A DNA stretch of 64,000 bases, taken from NCBI RefSeq assembly GCF_900167975.1, contig NZ_FUZU01000001.1, positions 1,336,580 to 1,400,579 on the forward strand. The letters are read 5' to 3'. Below, one piece after another: positions 49,043 through 57,077 of this stretch. Origin of the DNA: Ohtaekwangia koreensis. GTDB taxonomy: Bacteria; Bacteroidota; Bacteroidia; Cytophagales; Cyclobacteriaceae. Under the pieces are notes generated by a model, which searched no databases, was not told the DNA's origin, and was given only the letters and a program-made list of their open reading frames with translations. A program made the position numbers and the translations under genes. Numbering within the stretch: the stretch's first letter is position 1; each line of letters starts with the position of its first letter.

Positions 49043-49353
49043 TTGTTTGAAGTTATAACCTATAGTTGTTGCTATAGCATAGTCAGTAAAGTTGAAGAGA
49101 GCATCATACCTATCTGATGTATGATTTTAGATAGTAACATCTGATTACTTTATGAGTCTATAGCCTATACAGGAACGTTGAGATTTAGTGTGAGCAGCAT
49201 GAAGATCAAAGCGTCTAGCCGTCACGATTGAAGCAAAAATTCTCGGTTAATATTGCGCCTCTCTAGCGGTTGATTTACTAACGGAAGTTAGTGGTTGTAA
49301 AAAAAAAGTAAAGTTCTTATGCAAATGTTTGCCATTAAACAAACTTTTCCGTT
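49043..49353. other. Gene-free upstream region of the arginine operon
   Basis: No protein gene is supported here. The region contains several CTATAG/GCTATAGC words and an inverted repeat GTTTG ... CAAAC at 49327-49344, between the candidate -33 TTG (49329-49331) and the -7 box, which could be an operator. I see no tRNA or other structured RNA. Confidence 0.5.
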
Positions 49354-49361
49354 TAATTTTG
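49354..49361 (+). promoter_or_regulatory. -7 promoter box of the arginine operon
   Basis: TAATTTTG fits TAnnTTTG exactly; TTTG at 49328-49331 is a candidate -33 element with 22 bases between. Transcription from here gives a leader of about 320 bases before the first enzyme gene, long enough for an attenuator. Confidence 0.5.
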
Positions 49362-49440
49362 CATTTGGATTTAGAAAGAAAACAAAAACATAAACTGAAT
49401 GATTTTCATCTAACGTTTCACTTTAACGCTTGAAAAGAAA

Positions 49441-49569
49441 TTGAAAACATTGTTCACCATAATAAAAGCTGCTAAGGCTGCTTACCAATCTGATAGAACG
49501 TTCCAGTTCTTATTTAACGCCTGTATGGTGACCAGGCGACCGCGACCCGTACGCTTTGCGCGTATCTGA
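49441..49569 (+). CDS. Candidate arginine leader peptide
   Basis: An open frame of 42 codons from TTG 49441 (TTG 49450 is an alternative; an in-frame ATG lies at 49525) to TGA 49567-49569. The last 14 residues read MVTRRPRPVRFARI: five arginines in eleven codons, written AGG, CGA, CGA, CGC, CGT. It lies between the operon promoter box and a terminator hairpin that precedes the arginine biosynthesis genes, the classic position of an attenuation control peptide. Stalling at Arg codons when Arg-tRNA is scarce would change RNA pairing downstream. I inferred this from sequence only; the start codon is uncertain. Confidence 0.6.
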   Translation: MKTLFTIIKAAKAAYQSDRTFQFLFNACMVTRRPRPVRFARI

Positions 49570-49600
49570 TACCTCCATCATACAACTTGTTGTTGATTTA

Positions 49601-49627
49601 ACGTGATGTCAAGGACATTGCGTTTTT
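49601..49627 (+). terminator. Candidate attenuator terminator before the arginine operon
   Basis: ACGTGATGTC (49601-49610) and GACATTGCGT (49614-49623) form a 10-bp stem with two G-U pairs and an AAG loop, running into TTTTT (49623-49627). CATCAT at 49576-49581 can pair with GTGATG (49603-49608) in the 5' arm, an anti-terminator. CATAC (49579-49583) can pair with GTATG (49523-49527) at the start of the Arg-rich segment. Confidence 0.6.
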
Positions 49628-49687
49628 GTGCTTTTCCCCGGGCACGGAGTTTTCAATTCATCATCACTTTATAATTCAGAATTCACA

Positions 49688-50488
49688 TTGGAAAATCAAA
49701 TTATAATTGTCAGACTGGCAACAGCTGACGATAAACATTACGCAGAGACCATCACAAACGAGATGGAAGAATCTGCAAAAGCGCGTGGTACCGGTATTGC
49801 CAAGCGCTCACCTCTATACATCGAGAAGAAGATGGAAGAAGGTAAAGCGATCATCGCTGTAACAGATCAGGGTACATGGGTTGGCTTTTGCTATATAGAA
49901 GCATGGGAGCATGATAAGTATGTAGCCAACTCCGGTCTTATTGTTTCTCCTGCATTTCGTAAGACAGGTGTAGCAACGGAAATCAAACACAAAGTCTTCA
50001 ACTTGTCACGTGAGAAATATCCTCACGCTAAAATATTTGGTCTTACTACCGGTCTCGCAGTAATGAAGATCAACTCTGATCTTGGTTACGAGCCTGTTAC
50101 CTATTCTGAACTTACCAACGATGAAGAGTTTTGGAAAGGCTGCCAGAGCTGTGTGAACTATGAGATACTGATGAGCAAAGGCAGAAAGAACTGCATGTGT
50201 ACTGCCATGTTGTTTGACCCTGCAGAAGCAGAAGCAAAGATCAAAGCAGCAGAAGCTGCCAAAGCTCTGACACAAGCAACGCCTGTGAAAGTTGCTGAGA
50301 CAGTAGTGACGCCTGAAGGAGAACTGGTAACACATCGCCATCGCGAGTTCAAAGGCAACTTCAAACTGTTTGAACGCTGGGTGCGCTTCAAACAATTCGT
50401 TCTGTTGAAATCCTCCCGTAAAAAAGACGAAGGCAACGGAGATAAATCCGATAGGAAATCTTTGTTAAGCTTTTTCTTCTTTTGGTAA
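49688..50488 (+). CDS. GNAT N-acyltransferase, probable first enzyme of arginine synthesis
   Basis: 266 residues from TTG 49688. The frame runs back to GTG 49628, but that codon directly follows the attenuator T run and the extra residues are not conserved-looking. The GNAT fold is seen in VRLATADDKHYAETITNEME, the acetyl-CoA loop region IVSPAFRKTGVATEIKHKVF, and a Cys-containing end (CQSCVNYEILMSKGRKNCMCTAM), then a charged tail. It heads the arginine operon and so probably N-acylates glutamate (or an equivalent), replacing classical ArgA. Acetyl versus succinyl transfer cannot be told from sequence. Confidence 0.75.
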   Translation: MENQIIIVRLATADDKHYAETITNEMEESAKARGTGIAKRSPLYIEKKMEEGKAIIAVTDQGTWVGFCYIEAWEHDKYVANSGLIVSPAFRKTGVATEIKHKVFNLSREKYPHAKIFGLTTGLAVMKINSDLGYEPVTYSELTNDEEFWKGCQSCVNYEILMSKGRKNCMCTAMLFDPAEAEAKIKAAEAAKALTQATPVKVAETVVTPEGELVTHRHREFKGNFKLFERWVRFKQFVLLKSSRKKDEGNGDKSDRKSLLSFFFFW

Positions 50489-50641: not shown

Positions 50642-51850
50642 ATGAGTAAAAAGAAAGTCGTATTAGCATTCAGCGGAGGTCTTGATACCTCGTATTGTGT
50701 AAAGTATTTAGGTGAAGAAAAAGGATATGAGATTCATACCATCACGGTAAATACCGGTGGTTTTGATGAAAAGGAAATCAAAGAGATTGAAGCGCGTGCT
50801 AAAAATCTTGGCGTTGCTTCACACAAAACAGTAGACGAAACAAAGAACTATTACGAGAAGGTAATCCGCTACCTCATCTATGGAAATATACTAAAGAACA
50901 ATACCTATCCGCTTAGTGTAAGTGCCGAGCGTATGTCGCAAGCGTTGGCTGTGGCGATCTATGCAAAGGAGATTAAAGCTGATGCAGTGGCACACGGAAG
51001 CACTGGAGCTGGTAACGACCAGGTTCGTTTCGATATGATCCTGAATATACTTGTGCCCGGTATAGAGATCATCACACCGATCCGTGAATTGAAACTGTCA
51101 CGTGAAGAAGAAATTGCTTTCCTGAAATCGAAAGGTGTACAAATGAATTTCGAGAAAGCGATATACTCCATCAACAAAGGTATATGGGGAACATCTGTAG
51201 GAGGGAAGGAGACATTGAAGTCGCTGGGCATGTTGCCCGAAGAAGCGTGGCCTACACAAGTTACGAAGGCAGGAAGTGAACAAGTGAAACTTACTTTCGA
51301 GAAAGGTGAGCTTAAGAAAATAAATGATAAAAGTTTCGCCCATCCGGTAGAAGCAATTCAACACCTGCAGTCTATAGCAGGCCCTTACGGGATTGGCAGA
51401 GATATACATGTAGGCGATACGATCATAGGTATAAAGGGTCGCGTAGGCTTTGAAGCTGCCGCTCCTATACTCGTGTTGAAGGCGCATCATGCACTGGAGA
51501 AACACGTGCTTACCAAATGGCAACTCAGCTGGAAAGATCAGCTTGCACAATTTTATGGTAACTGGTTACACGAAGGACAATACCTGGATCCGATCATGCG
51601 CGACATCGAGGCTTTCCTCACGAATGCTCAGCAAAATGTAACCGGTGATGTTACTATACAACTCCATCCCTATAGATACCAGGTGCTGGGCATTGAATCA
51701 TCCTATGATCTCATGTCATCGAAGTTTGGCAAGTACGGTGAAATGAATCTCGGTTGGACGGGCGATGATGTGAAAGGCTTCACGAAGATCTTCGGCAACC
51801 AGACTGCTATATATCATCAGGTGAAGGAAGAGAATGAAGCTAAAAGCTAA
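50642..51850 (+). CDS. argG: Argininosuccinate synthase
   Basis: 402 residues. The ATP pyrophosphatase loop AFSGGLDTS is at residues 9-17, followed by AHGSTGAGNDQVRF, the aspartate/citrulline-binding segment, and the family hallmark WGTSVGGKE. It joins citrulline and aspartate using ATP. The gene follows the GNAT gene by 153 bases and is 50 bases from argC, in the same direction. A start at ATG 50642 gives the normal N-terminus KKKVVLAFSGG. Confidence 0.96.
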   Translation: MSKKKVVLAFSGGLDTSYCVKYLGEEKGYEIHTITVNTGGFDEKEIKEIEARAKNLGVASHKTVDETKNYYEKVIRYLIYGNILKNNTYPLSVSAERMSQALAVAIYAKEIKADAVAHGSTGAGNDQVRFDMILNILVPGIEIITPIRELKLSREEEIAFLKSKGVQMNFEKAIYSINKGIWGTSVGGKETLKSLGMLPEEAWPTQVTKAGSEQVKLTFEKGELKKINDKSFAHPVEAIQHLQSIAGPYGIGRDIHVGDTIIGIKGRVGFEAAAPILVLKAHHALEKHVLTKWQLSWKDQLAQFYGNWLHEGQYLDPIMRDIEAFLTNAQQNVTGDVTIQLHPYRYQVLGIESSYDLMSSKFGKYGEMNLGWTGDDVKGFTKIFGNQTAIYHQVKEENEAKS

Positions 51851-51900: not shown

Positions 51901-52881
51901 ATGACGAACACAAAAATACGAGTAGGCATTATAGGCGGTGCAGGATACGGAGGCGGTGAAACGATCCGGTTGTTGCTGAACCATCCACAAGCCGAGTTGT
52001 CTTTTGTTCATAGCCGGAGTAATGCAGGTAATCCGCTATACTCTGTGCACGCAGATTTGCAGGGTGATACTGAACTGAAATTTACAGATACACTGCAGCA
52101 GGATGTAGACGCATTAATTATATGCCTTGGTCATGGGGAAAGTAAAAAGTTTCTTCAGGACAATGCTATTGATGCCAGGATTAAAGTTATAGATCTCAGT
52201 CAGGATTTCAGATTAGGAGAATCCGTTCAGGGCCGATCATTTGTATATGGATTGCCAGAGTTGAACAGAGAAGCTATAAAGAAGGCAAGTAATATAGCGA
52301 ATCCGGGATGCTTCGCTACCGCTATTCAGCTTGGATTACTTCCTTTAGCAAAGGCAGGTATATTAAAAGAAGTTTTTGCAACGGGTATCACAGGCTCTAC
52401 CGGAGCCGGGCAGAAGTTACAGGATACTACGCATTTTACGTGGCGTGCGAATAATATATCGGCCTATAAAACGCTTACGCACCAGCATCTGAAGGAGATC
52501 AATCAATCCTTGAAACAACTTCAGTCTGGATTCAGCGATGCTATAAATTTCATTCCATGGCGCGGTGATTTTGCGCGCGGAATTTTTGTGAGCTCCTGCA
52601 TTACAACGGATCGTTCACTCGATGACCTGAAGAGTATATATAAAGATTTTTATGCAGGTCATCCTTTTACGATCGTTTCCGATGATACGATCGATATGAA
52701 GCAAATCGTGAATACGAATAAATGTTTGATCGGTATAGAAAAAGAAGGTAATAAAGTAGTAGTTCATTCTGCTATCGACAACTTGCTGAAAGGCGCATCC
52801 GGTCAGGCTATTCAAAATATAAATTTGCTTTTTGGCTTGGAAGAAACGACCGGCTTGAAGTTGAAGAGCATTGTGTTTTAA
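51901..52881 (+). CDS. argC: N-acyl-gamma-glutamyl-phosphate reductase
   Basis: 326 residues. NADPH fold GIIGGAGYGGGETIRLL at the N-terminus, and the catalytic Cys near residue 138 in NPGCFATAIQLGLLPL. The later TGSTGAGQ and HQHLKEI segments contribute substrate and catalytic His residues. It reduces N-acylglutamyl phosphate to the semialdehyde. It belongs to the ArgC type 1 family. In the arginine operon between argG and argD. Confidence 0.94.
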   Translation: MTNTKIRVGIIGGAGYGGGETIRLLLNHPQAELSFVHSRSNAGNPLYSVHADLQGDTELKFTDTLQQDVDALIICLGHGESKKFLQDNAIDARIKVIDLSQDFRLGESVQGRSFVYGLPELNREAIKKASNIANPGCFATAIQLGLLPLAKAGILKEVFATGITGSTGAGQKLQDTTHFTWRANNISAYKTLTHQHLKEINQSLKQLQSGFSDAINFIPWRGDFARGIFVSSCITTDRSLDDLKSIYKDFYAGHPFTIVSDDTIDMKQIVNTNKCLIGIEKEGNKVVVHSAIDNLLKGASGQAIQNINLLFGLEETTGLKLKSIVF

Positions 52882-53044: not shown

Positions 53045-54166
53045 ATGAAATTATTTGATGTATACCCCTTATTCAATATAACTCCGGAAAGAGCGCAAGG
53101 CTCATGGCTTTGGGATGACAAAGGTGAAAAGTACCTGGATCTATATGGAGGTCATGCCGTTATTTCAATCGGCCATTCACATTCTCATTATGTAAAGTCA
53201 TTGAATGATCAGCTTGGTAAAATTGCATTTTACTCCAATAGCGTTCAAAATCCAATTCAGGAAAAGCTTGCTGACAAGTTAGGGCAACTCTCGGGCTATC
53301 CGGAATATCAACTCTTTCTTTGTAATTCCGGTGCTGAAGCGAACGAGAATGCATTGAAGCTTGCGTCCTTTATTACAGGGCGTAAAAAAGTTATAGCATT
53401 CAAAAAAGCATTTCACGGAAGAACATCAGGAGCTGTCGCGGCTACAGATAATCCAAAGATCGTGGCACCTTTCAATGCAGGTCATGATATAGCCTTTGTT
53501 CCGATGAACGATGAAGCTGCTTTTAACGAGGTGCTTGATGATACTATAGCGGCTGTTATTATAGAAGGTATACAAGGTGTTGGAGGTATACAATTGCCTT
53601 CCGATTCTTTTCTTCAGTTCCTTGAAAAGAAATGCAAAGAGAATGGATCTGTTTTTATACTCGATGAAATTCAATGTGGCTACGGAAGAACCGGAAAATT
53701 CTTCGCGCATCAACATGCAGGTGTCAAGCCACATTTGATCACTACTGCGAAAGGTATGGGCAATGGATTTCCTATAGGAGGCGTACTGATTCATCCGGAT
53801 ATAAAACCGTGGAGCGGTATGCTGGGAACTACATTCGGAGGAAATTACTTGGCGTCTGTGGCTGGTCTCGCTGTACTCGAAGTAATGGAAAAAGAGAACT
53901 TGATTCACAACGCAGCTGTGCAGGGTGATTATTGGATCGCTGCACTTAAGAAATACCCTTCACTAAAAGACGTACGCGGCAGAGGATTAATGATAGGTTT
54001 TGATTTGCCGGAAGAGAAAAAGTCCGTACGTAACGATCTTTTACAAAAACATAAGATATTTACAGGAGAAGCCAAGCCGAATACAATTCGCTTGCTGCCT
54101 TCATTGGCTTTAACAAAAGAAGAAGCTGATCTATTTTTAACAGCATTGACCGAAGAACTGAAATGA
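53045..54166 (+). CDS. argD: Acylornithine aminotransferase
   Basis: 373 residues, class III PLP aminotransferase. Substrate and cofactor motifs: GGHAVISIGHSH, NSGAEANENALKLA (phosphate of PLP), ILDEIQCGYGRTGKFFAHQH with the Asp under the pyridine ring, and the Schiff-base Lys in TTAKGMGNGFPIGG near 235. It transaminates the N-acylglutamate semialdehyde with glutamate. The last 4 bases overlap the start of argF' (ATGA), indicating coupled translation. Confidence 0.93.
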   Translation: MKLFDVYPLFNITPERAQGSWLWDDKGEKYLDLYGGHAVISIGHSHSHYVKSLNDQLGKIAFYSNSVQNPIQEKLADKLGQLSGYPEYQLFLCNSGAEANENALKLASFITGRKKVIAFKKAFHGRTSGAVAATDNPKIVAPFNAGHDIAFVPMNDEAAFNEVLDDTIAAVIIEGIQGVGGIQLPSDSFLQFLEKKCKENGSVFILDEIQCGYGRTGKFFAHQHAGVKPHLITTAKGMGNGFPIGGVLIHPDIKPWSGMLGTTFGGNYLASVAGLAVLEVMEKENLIHNAAVQGDYWIAALKKYPSLKDVRGRGLMIGFDLPEEKKSVRNDLLQKHKIFTGEAKPNTIRLLPSLALTKEEADLFLTALTEELK

Positions 54167-55122
54167 AAAACTTTATTTCCGTCAACGATGTGGCAGACAT
54201 CGATGCCCTCGTAGCAAAGGCACTCGACTTTAAAGCTAATCCGCTTACGAGCCAGGCTCTTGGTTCGAATAAGCGTATCGGCTTATTGTTTCTCAATCCA
54301 AGTATGCGCACAAGATTGAGTACACAGATTGCCGCTGAGAATCTCGGCATGAAGGTCATCGTATTTAATGTTGGTCAGGATGGCTGGGCGCTTGAGTTTG
54401 AAGATGAAGCGATCATGAGTGGCAATACAGTTGAGCACGTTAAAGATGCCGCTCCGATTATGGGCAAGTATTTTGATGTGTTGGGTATACGTACATTTCC
54501 TTCGTTGCAGAATAAGGTTGATGATTATAGCGAACTATATATCAACCAGTTTATTAAATATGCAGGTATACCGGTGCTGAGTCTTGAAAGTGCAACGCTG
54601 CATCCGCTGCAAAGTCTTACCGATATCATTACCATTCGCGAGACATTCCGCGAAAAGCGAAAGCCCAAAATTGTATTAACATGGGCACCTCACGTTAAAG
54701 CATTGCCCCAATGTGTAGCCAATAGTTTTTCACAGTGGATCAACGCCTGGGGTGAATCTGATTTTGTGATCACGCATCCGGAAGACTACGAACTGGATGA
54801 GAAATTTACCAAAGGAGCAAGTATAGAACTCGATCAGAAGAAAGCCTTGAAAGATGCTGACTTTGTTTACGTCAAGAACTGGAGTACATATACCGACTAC
54901 GGAAGAATTTATTGCAACGACCCTTCGTGGATGTTGACTAATGATAAATTACAGTTAACGAATAACGCAAAGGTTATGCATTGCCTTCCTGTAAGACGCA
55001 ATGTAGAATTAAGCGATGAGATATTGGATGGTGCCAACAGCGTTGTAACGCGACAAGCATCGAACCGCGTGTGGGCTGCGCAGGCAGTACTTCATGAGTT
55101 ATTAACAAACAAGCTTCAGTAA
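54163..55122 (+). CDS. argF': N-acylornithine carbamoyltransferase (ArgF' type)
   Basis: 319 residues. Carbamoyl-phosphate loop FLNPSMRTRLST (SMRTR in place of STRTR), the 80s-type loop GNTVEH, HPLQSLTD, and HCLPVRRNVELSDEI. The sequence belongs to the acetyl/succinyl-ornithine transcarbamylase branch, not ornithine transcarbamylase, so the acyl group is kept until after carbamoylation. The residue reported to set acetyl (Glu) versus succinyl (Pro) preference appears to be Val here by my eye alignment. The acyl group used is thus open. Confidence 0.9.
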   Translation: MKNFISVNDVADIDALVAKALDFKANPLTSQALGSNKRIGLLFLNPSMRTRLSTQIAAENLGMKVIVFNVGQDGWALEFEDEAIMSGNTVEHVKDAAPIMGKYFDVLGIRTFPSLQNKVDDYSELYINQFIKYAGIPVLSLESATLHPLQSLTDIITIRETFREKRKPKIVLTWAPHVKALPQCVANSFSQWINAWGESDFVITHPEDYELDEKFTKGASIELDQKKALKDADFVYVKNWSTYTDYGRIYCNDPSWMLTNDKLQLTNNAKVMHCLPVRRNVELSDEILDGANSVVTRQASNRVWAAQAVLHELLTNKLQ

Positions 55123-55134
55123 ACCGGAGTGTTC

Positions 55135-55923
55135 ATGAATAAGCTTTTCATTATAAAGATTGGAGGAAATGTGCTGGATAATCCCCAGGCATTAAGTTCT
55201 TTCTTAAAAGATTTTGCTTCGATCAAAGAATCAAAAATTTTGATTCATGGTGGAGGAAAGATTGCCACGAAACTTGGCGATCAGTTAGGCATCGAGTCAA
55301 AGTATATAAATGGAAGAAGAATTACCGATGCACAAACACTGGATGTAGTGACGATGGTATATGGCGGGCTGGTAAATAAACAGATCGTAGCCACGTTACA
55401 GACATTGAATTGCAACGCCATGGGCTTTACCGGTGCAGACGGTAATCTGATCAAAGCCGTGAAGCGCCCTGTGAAAGATATAGACTACGGTTTTGTAGGC
55501 GATGTCAAGGAAGAAGGAGTGAACGCATCGTTGCTATCTTTACTCTTGAAACAAGATATAGTGCCGGTGTTCGCGCCATTGACTCATGCAGACGGTTCAA
55601 TGCTGAACACAAATGCTGATACTATAGCTTCGGTATTATCCGTTGCACTAAGCAAGCATTTTGATGTACGACTCATTTTCTGCTTTGAGAAGAAAGGTGT
55701 TTTGATGGATGTTAATGATCCGGATTCTGTGATCACGCACTTGCCAAAGAATCGCTACGATGAGCTGTTGCCTAAAGGTATATTTGCTGATGGTATACTT
55801 CCGAAATTGGAAAATGCATATACTGCTATACAAACCGGAGTAAAAGAGGTTTTGATAGGAGAAGCGAAAGACCTCGTGAAAAATACCGGACCGGTAACAG
55901 AGGGAACGTTAATAACAATATAA
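55135..55923 (+). CDS. argB: N-acylglutamate kinase
   Basis: 262 residues from ATG 55135. Amino-acid kinase fold: IIKIGGNVLDN at the start, LIHGGGKIATKLG, glutamate-binding NGRRITDAQTLDVV, NADTIASVLSVAL, and the terminal GTLITI. It phosphorylates the gamma-carboxylate of N-acylglutamate. The N-terminal arginine-binding helix seen in feedback-sensitive kinases is missing, so direct arginine inhibition is unlikely. Twelve bases separate it from argF'. Confidence 0.94.
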   Translation: MNKLFIIKIGGNVLDNPQALSSFLKDFASIKESKILIHGGGKIATKLGDQLGIESKYINGRRITDAQTLDVVTMVYGGLVNKQIVATLQTLNCNAMGFTGADGNLIKAVKRPVKDIDYGFVGDVKEEGVNASLLSLLLKQDIVPVFAPLTHADGSMLNTNADTIASVLSVALSKHFDVRLIFCFEKKGVLMDVNDPDSVITHLPKNRYDELLPKGIFADGILPKLENAYTAIQTGVKEVLIGEAKDLVKNTGPVTEGTLITI

Positions 55924-56018: not shown

Positions 56019-57077
56019 ATGGATTCATTATACGAAAAAGCTACGAACCTGTTGATAAAACTCATTGCTGTTCCTTCGTTCAGCAAGGAGGAGGATGAAG
56101 TAGCTTCAGTATTGGAAGAATTTTTTGAGAAAGAGCGGGTTCATTCTTACCGTAAAGGCAACAACGTATGGGTGAAGAATCTATACTTTGACCCTGCGAA
56201 ACCTACCGTTCTGTTAAATTCACATCACGATACCGTAAAGCCAAATCCGCAGTATACACGCGATCCGTTCAAGCCTGAAATTATAGATGGTAAATTGTTT
56301 GGTTTAGGAAGCAATGATGCAGGCGGACCACTGGTTTCATTAATTGGTACATTCTTACATTATTATCCTCAGCAAAACCTGAAGTATAATATAGTGCTGG
56401 CAGCTACAGCAGAAGAAGAGATCTCCGGTACGGGGGGTGTTGAAAGTATATGGACGTCATTGCCCTCTATTGATTTTGCTATCGTAGGAGAGCCTACACT
56501 TTGCCAGATGGCAACAGCTGAAAAAGGTTTGATGGTGTTGGATTGTATTGCTCGCGGTAAGGCCGGACATGCTGCACGTGAAGAAGGCATCAATGCTATA
56601 TATGAAGCCTTGCCGGATATTGAGTGGTTCCGTAATTACAAGTTCCCAATTATATCTCAGACACTCGGTCCGATAAAAATGACAGTAACGATTATCAATG
56701 CCGGCAAGCAGCACAACGTGGTGCCTGCGGAATGTCATTATACAGTGGATGTTCGCGTTACCGATGCATATAGTCTTGAAGAGCTTCTCGAAGTGATCAA
56801 GCAAAATGTAAAAAGTGAAGTGTCGCCACGTTCCATGCGCATGCGTCCTTCCGGTATAGCGGAAGATCATCCGTTGGTACAGGCTGCAATTAAACTGGGT
56901 ATCGAGCGCTATGGCTCACCTACTACATCCGATCAGGCATTGATCCCAACTCCCTCTGTTAAAATGGGACCTGGTGATTCTGCACGTTCGCATTCTGCTG
57001 ACGAATTTATATATGCGGATGAAATCCGGCAGGGCATTGATACCTATATCAAGGTTCTCAACGAAGTGATTCTGTAG
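56019..57077 (+). CDS. M20 family N-acylcitrulline/acylornithine deacylase (ArgE-like)
   Basis: 352 residues, M20 metallopeptidase. Metal ligands sit in LNSHHDTV, GSNDAGG and ATAEEEIS (catalytic Glu plus metal Glu), and the late GPGDSARSHSADEF. The dimerisation domain lies in the middle (GKAGHAAREEGINAI). In this pathway it should remove the acyl group from N-acylcitrulline, releasing citrulline for ArgG. It is followed within 2 bases by the isochorismatase-like gene. Confidence 0.88.
   Translation: MDSLYEKATNLLIKLIAVPSFSKEEDEVASVLEEFFEKERVHSYRKGNNVWVKNLYFDPAKPTVLLNSHHDTVKPNPQYTRDPFKPEIIDGKLFGLGSNDAGGPLVSLIGTFLHYYPQQNLKYNIVLAATAEEEISGTGGVESIWTSLPSIDFAIVGEPTLCQMATAEKGLMVLDCIARGKAGHAAREEGINAIYEALPDIEWFRNYKFPIISQTLGPIKMTVTIINAGKQHNVVPAECHYTVDVRVTDAYSLEELLEVIKQNVKSEVSPRSMRMRPSGIAEDHPLVQAAIKLGIERYGSPTTSDQALIPTPSVKMGPGDSARSHSADEFIYADEIRQGIDTYIKVLNEVIL

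Follow-up and report, generated by a model that had tools for sequence, protein, structure and literature searches.

The arginine biosynthesis operon of Ohtaekwangia koreensis is preceded by a promoter box, a 42-codon open reading frame (ORF) rich in Arg codons, and a hairpin with a T run, which together very probably constitute a ribosome-mediated arginine attenuator, as judged from sequence comparison. Our best reading is that this attenuator would stand in for the repressor ArgR. An attenuator had been proposed in an initial annotation of the window (the whole analysed stretch of 64,000 nucleotides); the Arg leader, the operon promoter, and the terminator of window-type leaders were borne out, and the RNA switch that it described is unproven or wrong. 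In the proposed mechanism, transcription would start shortly downstream of position 49361 and a ribosome would translate the leader. A shortage of charged Arg-tRNA would slow the ribosome at the AGG/CGA-rich cluster, and the operon would be read; with plentiful arginine, the ribosome would reach the stop codon and the post-stop hairpin (49600–49627) would end transcription before the genes GNAT-argG-argC-argD-argF'-argB-argE. The direction of control, the stalling, and the termination in vivo are what we infer from this arrangement.

All window features described here are on the forward strand. The promoter box TAATTTTG (49354–49361) is of the TAnnTTTG (-7) type and is the sole TAnnTTTG within 49200–49700. 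The leader peptide ORF (49441–49569) starts with TTG, encodes the 42 residues LKTLFTIIKAAKAAYQSDRTFQFLFNACMVTRRPRPVRFARI, and ends with the TGA at 49567–49569. Its terminal part, from the ATG at 49525 to the TGA, translates to MVTRRPRPVRFARI. The Arg-codon cluster (49534–49563) consists of AGG 49534, CGA 49537, CGA 49543, CGC 49552, and CGT 49561, that is to say, 5 of the 11 codons from AGG 49534 to the stop are Arg codons. A helix within the ORF, which we designate P1 (49454–49531), is formed by TCACCATA (49454–49461) and TATGGTGA (49524–49531) and encloses 2 hairpins (49467–49482 and 49495–49510), and a small hairpin ACGC-TTTGC-GCGT (49551–49563; 95.5% of cells paired) spans the final 2 Arg codons. 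Past the leader stop are CATCATAC (49576–49583) and the post-stop hairpin with TTTTT (49600–49627), a candidate intrinsic terminator by energy, covariation, and helix scan. The box, the Arg-rich frame end with its 5 Arg in 11 codons, CATCATAC, and the hairpin were thus all found where the initial annotation had placed them. The hairpin and the T run were confirmed, and the hairpin's length was corrected from 10 bp (49601–49623) to 11 bp (49600–49624): its arms are 49600–49610 and 49614–49624 with 2 G.U pairs, the TTTTT occupies 49623–49627, and the folding energy is -11.4 kcal/mol (z -4.26 versus shuffles). A second hairpin GTGC...GCAC followed by GGAGTTTT (49628–49653) is, by its sequence, a possible second terminator; inspection by eye revealed that a GTGCTTTT-type hairpin recurs in close relatives between the terminator and the gene. 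Neither the window (at the gathering score) nor 20 leader loci (at E 0.5) matched any Rfam covariance model, and Pfam and NCBIfam profiles gave no match to the 42-residue leader peptide.

The first operon gene encodes a GNAT acetyltransferase (49688–50488; PF00583, 22.7 bits, cut-off 20.7), which begins with TTG 49688; in relatives, either TTG or ATG stands as the start at the corresponding position (ATG in relative L010). It is followed by argG (50642–51850; TIGR00032, 274.7 bits, cut-off 268.2), argC (51901–52881; TIGR01850, 299.6 bits, cut-off 233.6), an argD-like aminotransferase gene (53045–54166; TIGR00707, 353.7 bits, under the cut-off of 410.05), an N-acyl-ornithine carbamoyltransferase-like gene (54163–55122; PRK04523, 280.5 bits, slightly under the cut-off of 288), argB (55129–55923; TIGR00761, 180.5 bits, cut-off 151.3), and an ArgE/DapE-like deacylase gene (56019–57077; TIGR01910, 136.9 bits, under the cut-off of 217.6).

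A search with the 42-residue peptide in 146 genomes, the organism's own included, gave 12 clear matches (E <= 0.004), all of 42 codons, with the N-terminus TTGAAAAC and upstream of the same GNAT gene; the remaining matches were weak and chance-like. The GNAT gene is present in 220 of 245 genomes of the window's family, Cyclobacteriaceae. Beyond the loci already collected, 80 GNAT upstream regions of this family were taken, mostly the top-ranked among the matches listed, and a profile built from 10 leader peptides matched 16 of them at E <= 1.3e-6 and 3 more weakly (E < 0.01). A pattern that demanded a first codon for Leu, a V-T/S/N-R-like core, and a terminal RI recovered 35 leaders (window type), 26 of exactly 42 codons and the others of 37, 38, 41, or 44 codons or with an earlier in-frame Leu. 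Codon counts used the 26 rows of 42 codons alone (24 distinct), and the constant length among them is therefore a product of row selection.

The leader ORF is, according to substitution patterns, under frame-specific purifying selection. The pN/pS of the whole leader was 0.54 in frame, and the 2 shifted frames gave 1.17 and 0.99 (113 pairs with less than 25% difference); the values were 0.57 versus 1.06 and 1.03 for codons 1–29, which the pattern barely touched, and 0.34 versus 1.92 and 0.74 for codons 30–42, which it did touch. The first codon (49441) is TTG in 24/24 distinct leaders, where the row filter required Leu and not TTG. The Arg-rich segment singled out in the initial annotation begins with ATG 49525, which is not the leader start: the codon is ATG in 13 of the 24 distinct leaders and ACG, CCG, or CTG in the other 11. 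The 5 Arg positions of the window are Arg in 117 of 120 cells across these leaders (the exceptions are W, S, and Q). Synonymous codons alternate in part (AGG/AGA, CGA/CGG/CGC, and CGT/CGG), and 2 positions are without codon variation. Within the final 13 codons of the 35 window-type leaders, AGG and CGA account for 19.5% and 34.9% of 169 Arg codons; in the window's genes, they account for 5.6% and 10.1% of 552. The TAnnTTTG box lies 59–88 nt before the ORF in 34 of the 35 leaders, and between the leader stop and the gene in none of the 35. Judged from this box, the leader and the arg operon appear to share one upstream promoter, and a transcription start downstream of 49600 seems unlikely because the box precedes the ORF and does not follow its stop.

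Structure was analyzed in an alignment of 22 of the 35 window-type leaders, from which near-duplicates and leaders of other lengths were excluded. In the post-stop hairpin, 8/8 pairs show two-sided changes and 92.6% of cells are paired; in hairpin 49467–49482, such changes are found at 4 of the 6 pairs. The P1 core TCACC/GGTGA is invariant in 22/22 leaders, so that no covariation exists there; in the small hairpin 49551–49563, 3 of the 4 pairs are invariant. A terminator was counted when a hairpin below -5 kcal/mol stood before a T-rich 8-mer between the leader stop and the gene. By this measure, 31/35 window-type leaders have a terminator versus 9.5 in shuffles, and the T run itself is not conserved even within the window type.

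The initial annotation had also proposed an exact switch, in which CATCATAC alternates between GTATG at the front of the Arg-rich segment and the 5' arm of the terminator. This special form of the attenuator, which does not exclude the general one, we consider unlikely. Its pairings look good by eye in the window and its closest relatives, and that of CATCATAC with GTGATG is slightly above shuffles (58.3% of cells paired versus 52.6%, reached by 6 of 500 shuffles; covariation score 0.197 versus 0.133, reached by 15 of 500), a small excess that does not support a conserved switch. By contrast, the pairing of CATCATAC with GTATGGTG is at chance level (55.7% in both the leaders and the shuffles), and more distant window-type leaders lack both pairings by eye. 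A duplex scan run window by window against both arms of the post-stop hairpin clearly detected the antiterminator of the genome's own trp leader (z -3.8); the his leader, also used as a control, gave z -2.6. Among the arg leaders, it gave a best mean z of -0.40 (22 window-type) and -0.74 (48 non-window-type; described below) for the 5' arm, that is, no common antiterminator strand, and for the 3' arm a best mean z of -1.16 approximately 70 nt before the stop in the window type and of -0.36 in the non-window type. An all-column helix scan of both alignments returned the post-stop hairpin as the top helix in each and no conserved antiterminator. We observed that GTTCT (49506–49510), located in one of the ORF hairpins, could base-pair with AGGAC (49612–49616), which belongs to the loop and 3' arm of the terminator; this pairing, a candidate switch, may be the source of the -1.16 signal. 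The initial annotation had named a lack of conservation of the Arg codons or of the alternative stems in relatives as evidence against it; the codons are conserved, and the stems are not.

Many other Cyclobacteriaceae regions have different Arg-rich mini-ORFs at the same place before GNAT, with ends such as PLRRFRNSFRA, TFRSVFRA, RRFFFRA, TIRQDRR, and FRPAFPGRR. In 51 loci of this non-window type, the ORF was taken as the frame with the most Arg, a choice that biases toward high Arg counts and that gave no sensible ORF at 2 loci (L089 and L099); ATG is the start in 39, and of the 102 alternative frames (2 per locus), 6 are open across the ORF. The stop lies 24–27 nt before a hairpin motif, of which CCTACGTGG is the commonest form, in 33/51 loci, and in most of the remaining loci the ORF extends a few codons past this position. 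AGG makes up 82.7% of the Arg codons of this type; those of other lineages are mostly CGN. The promoter box, sought with a looser pattern, was found upstream of the ORF in 34/50 and downstream in 7/50.

The structure alignment of the non-window type contains 48 leaders from L055–L110, excluding L061, L070, L075, L078, L095, L098, L104, and L105 as near-duplicates, wrongly anchored, or without the motif. Two-sided changes were found at 6/6 pairs of the post-stop hairpin (89.2% paired), 6/6 pairs of a helix within the ORF (70.8% paired), and 2/5 pairs of a hairpin over the last Arg codon and the stop (83.3% paired). The post-stop hairpin has a near-invariant loop YACGN (CC-YACGN-GG). A covariance model of this type (R1), searched in 118 Cyclobacteriaceae genomes, matched 43 of them at E <= 0.01. 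All 35 matches at E <= 2.6e-6 lie within 200 nt upstream of GNAT, many of these loci being the model's own seeds; among 10 weaker matches, at least 3 lie within 200 nt before GNAT and several elsewhere. R1 does not match the window's leader.

Arg is, by codon counts, the sole strongly enriched amino acid in the mini-ORFs. In the 80 Cyclobacteriaceae regions (family f1), the highest Arg count within the final 12 codons of a mini-ORF averaged 3.75 versus 1.76 in dinucleotide shuffles (z 22.6) and 2.31 on the reverse strand, and the next enriched amino acid was Glu (z 3.4); relatedness of the regions inflates these z values and those that follow. A further 60 regions were chosen by family out of 103 genomes of the phylum with GNAT and gave a pooled Arg z of 9.7. 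The enrichment was 3.88 versus 1.89 in shuffles in the 34 regions of f23, f24, f26, f27, and f42 (z 15.5; next Pro, 3.3), and no Arg excess was found in 21 regions of f25, f41, f43, f44, f46, f48, f56, f58, and f60 (z -0.6) or in the 2 ArgR-bearing loci of f30 (z 0.6). The regions that reached 3 or more Arg (reverse-strand numbers in brackets) were 67/80 (22) in f1, 1/1 (0) in f11, 0/2 (0) in f13, 3/4 (0) in f23, 6/6 (3) in f24, 0/3 (0) in f25, 10/12 (0) in f26, 3/4 (2) in f27, 0/2 (0) in f30, 0/4 (0) in f41, 8/8 (3) in f42, 2/5 (2) in f43, 0/1 (1) in f44, 0/2 (0) in f46, 1/2 (0) in f48, 1/2 (1) in f56, 0/1 (0) in f58, and 0/1 (1) in f60. At least 4 Arg were found in 51/80 f1 regions (reverse strand, 6) and fewer than 3 in 13/80, and some leaders have just 1 or 2 Arg codons. 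Nothing but Arg is common by eye to leader sequences across lineages such as TRRPRPVRFARI, PLRRFRNSFRA, TRRRP, RRPYMPRA, and FRIPRRR.

Further relatives examined included Chryseolinea, Chryseotalea, Cecembia, Lacibacter, Flavisolibacter, Parafilimonas, Rufibacter, Aureivirga, and a Saprospiraceae metagenome-assembled genome (MAG); because several of these assemblies also belong to the main set, they do not provide independent evidence. A mini-ORF with 3 or more Arg among its final 13 codons was found in 38 of 46 loci examined (reverse strand, 16), the forty-seventh (L156) beginning inside the gene, and argG is next after GNAT in 43/46. At one locus (L138), the counted ORF is not the likely leader, which ends in PARRPRL at -123. 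The 8 loci below 3 Arg include 2 from Adhaeribacter and 1 from Cyclobacterium qasimii, which have leader-like frames with 2 Arg; the others are from 2 Bacteroidetes MAGs, 2 Bacteroidales MAGs, and a Paludibacteraceae genome (L152). In the Paludibacteraceae locus, the gene upstream of GNAT reads as ArgR by eye.

Outside the window type, intrinsic terminators are mostly at the shuffled level: 12/51 versus 9.8 in the non-window type (no clear excess), 1/4 versus 0.6 in f23, 0/6 versus 1.15 in f24, 2/10 versus 1.15 in f26, and 0/8 versus 1.3 in f42, with the exception of f27 (3/4 versus 0.65); in these 5 families, the count excluded leaders that had less than 2 Arg, and the wrong ORF was used for L163. 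These counts indicate that the sensor is common to the lineages and that the intrinsic terminator mostly is not; because the hairpin in the other lineages is unlike an intrinsic terminator, the output there is probably different. In family f26, which we take to be Flavobacteriaceae, a post-stop hairpin (regions L171–L182) has the loop TAGGTGWGTCC in 9 of 10 leaders with a variable stem. In Chitinophagaceae (L128–L132) and f24 (L164, L165, and L167), a hairpin CTGACAGG...CCTGTCAG contains by eye the leader stop codon in its 5' arm. In the type without terminators, the G-poor and C-rich composition between stop and gene (C/G > 1.5 in 34/51 loci versus 5/35 in the window type) led us to consider Rho; Rho-dependent ending remains a guess because a stalled ribosome would not obviously protect a C-rich stretch. 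Tentatively, and with somewhat less than even confidence, we propose that the Arg-codon sensor replaces ArgR across much of Bacteroidota and is, in most of its lineages, coupled to an undescribed, non-terminator post-stop hairpin with a lineage-specific, near-invariant loop, perhaps acting via Rho, a pause, or a protein.

ArgR (PF02863) was found in 0 of 118 relatives, the organism's own genome included; 8 of 14 control genomes, among them 1 Bacteroides, were positive. In a phylum sample of 247 genomes, GNAT (E 1e-15) was found in 103, ArgR in 92, and both in 3. In one of the 3 (G335), the ArgR match is weak (E 8e-5) and has an internal stop; in the other 2 (G523 and G531, family f30), ArgR is directly upstream of GNAT and there is no Arg leader. 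In families f25 and f41 (L168–L170 and L192–L195), GNAT is present, but neither an ArgR match nor a leader of at least 3 Arg was found, and thus the leader need not be the sole alternative to ArgR; in f41, 3 of the 4 GNAT matches lie in frames of approximately 600 residues, so that the stretch taken may be gene-internal.

Other explanations of the conserved leader were weighed against the attenuator. The fungal arginine attenuator peptide (AAP) and SpeFL stall in the ribosomal exit tunnel with free arginine or ornithine bound. The peptide end of the arginine leaders (VTRRPRPxRFxRI in the window type, or FRA elsewhere) could stall likewise, which we regard as quite improbable. Non-Arg residues near the end of the window-type leader are conserved too, in a block ending at the stop, part of which the search pattern includes. 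However, the peptides differ across lineages with Arg as the only common feature, and conserved sequence beyond Arg, as expected of an arrest peptide of the AAP or SpeFL type, was found within lineages only. The conserved non-Arg positions also often retain the same nucleotides and may therefore be explained by RNA structure. An RNA whose structure is bound by arginine or a protein, with the ORF as a by-product, would in turn account for the strong covariation in the leader hairpins of both types, for the near-invariant loops YACGN and TAGGTGWGTCC, and for the non-window type, where one Arg codon itself makes up a hairpin's 5' arm. This explanation is highly unlikely in view of the in-frame pN/pS of the window-type leader, the frequent ATG starts and the mostly closed alternative frames of the non-window type (whose frame was chosen by Arg count), and the retention of Arg between families that encode it by other codons and whose leader RNAs are unrelated. 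That the ORF encodes a small functional protein without a regulatory role is scarcely credible: purifying selection on its 42 codons would fit, but it precedes the same operon, is Arg-rich in unrelated versions, and has the position and structures of a leader.

The same genome has further leaders of this kind. The hisG gene (locus L218; G000:C6, hisG at 1508760, minus strand) is preceded by MNNNITSGLHHHHHGNDTMRGTAF, with 5 consecutive His codons, and by a terminator hairpin with TTTTTGTTT. The trpE gene (L222; G000:C3, trpE at 563181, minus strand) is preceded by MKQFNNIAWWWHISRYDM, with 3 Trp, and by a hairpin with TTCTTTTTTT; a terminator and a clear antiterminator strand are present, and the NNIA start of this Trp leader resembles many Arg leaders of the non-window type. 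An Ile/Val/Leu-rich frame ending in TVLVNSVNILLVKPAGAIVI (L223:834–950), a candidate branched-chain leader by its composition, stands before a likely branched-chain aminotransferase gene (identified by eye), which is followed by ilvD. Attenuation by leader peptides is thus likely general in this genome, which supports the attenuator reading for the arg operon.

In the his, trp, and leu attenuators, a short ORF rich in codons for the product lies behind the operon promoter, with a terminator after it. The window leader resembles them in its product-codon-rich ORF behind a promoter, its terminator (in the window type), and its enrichment in rare codons, and differs from them in the amino acid arginine, in its occurrence in Bacteroidota, and in that no conserved antiterminator was detected; the non-window arg leaders differ also in showing no excess of intrinsic terminators. 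ArgR likewise confers arginine-dependent control on arg genes, but as a protein repressor. The orf34 leader of Salmonella speF is an ORF with Arg codons, and the speed of its translation is reported to set the RNA structure; this leader differs from ours in having 2 consecutive Arg codons, in controlling ornithine decarboxylase, and in acting through Rho, RNase G, and speF translation (PMC6386406). The LEU element of Actinobacteria combines conserved leader codons with a conserved RNA structure and, similar to the arg leader, has no clear classical switch; it concerns leucine, and mutation of its codons is cited as without influence on regulation, a caution for the arginine case (PMC1262725). 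Titles and the beginnings of abstracts in the open-access literature yielded no arginine leader in Bacteroidota; the work of Lopatovskaya et al. (2010) on bacterial attenuation (cited in PMC4833913) may cover part of this ground.

If the attenuator reading is correct, it would explain how arginine synthesis is controlled in many Bacteroidota without ArgR, and arginine biosynthesis would join the pathways that are sensed through leader peptides. The sensor would have been retained while the RNA output changed across lineages. Together with the His, Trp, and candidate Ile/Val/Leu leaders of the same genome, the arginine leader suggests that attenuation may be one of the main ways in which amino-acid pathways are controlled in this group.
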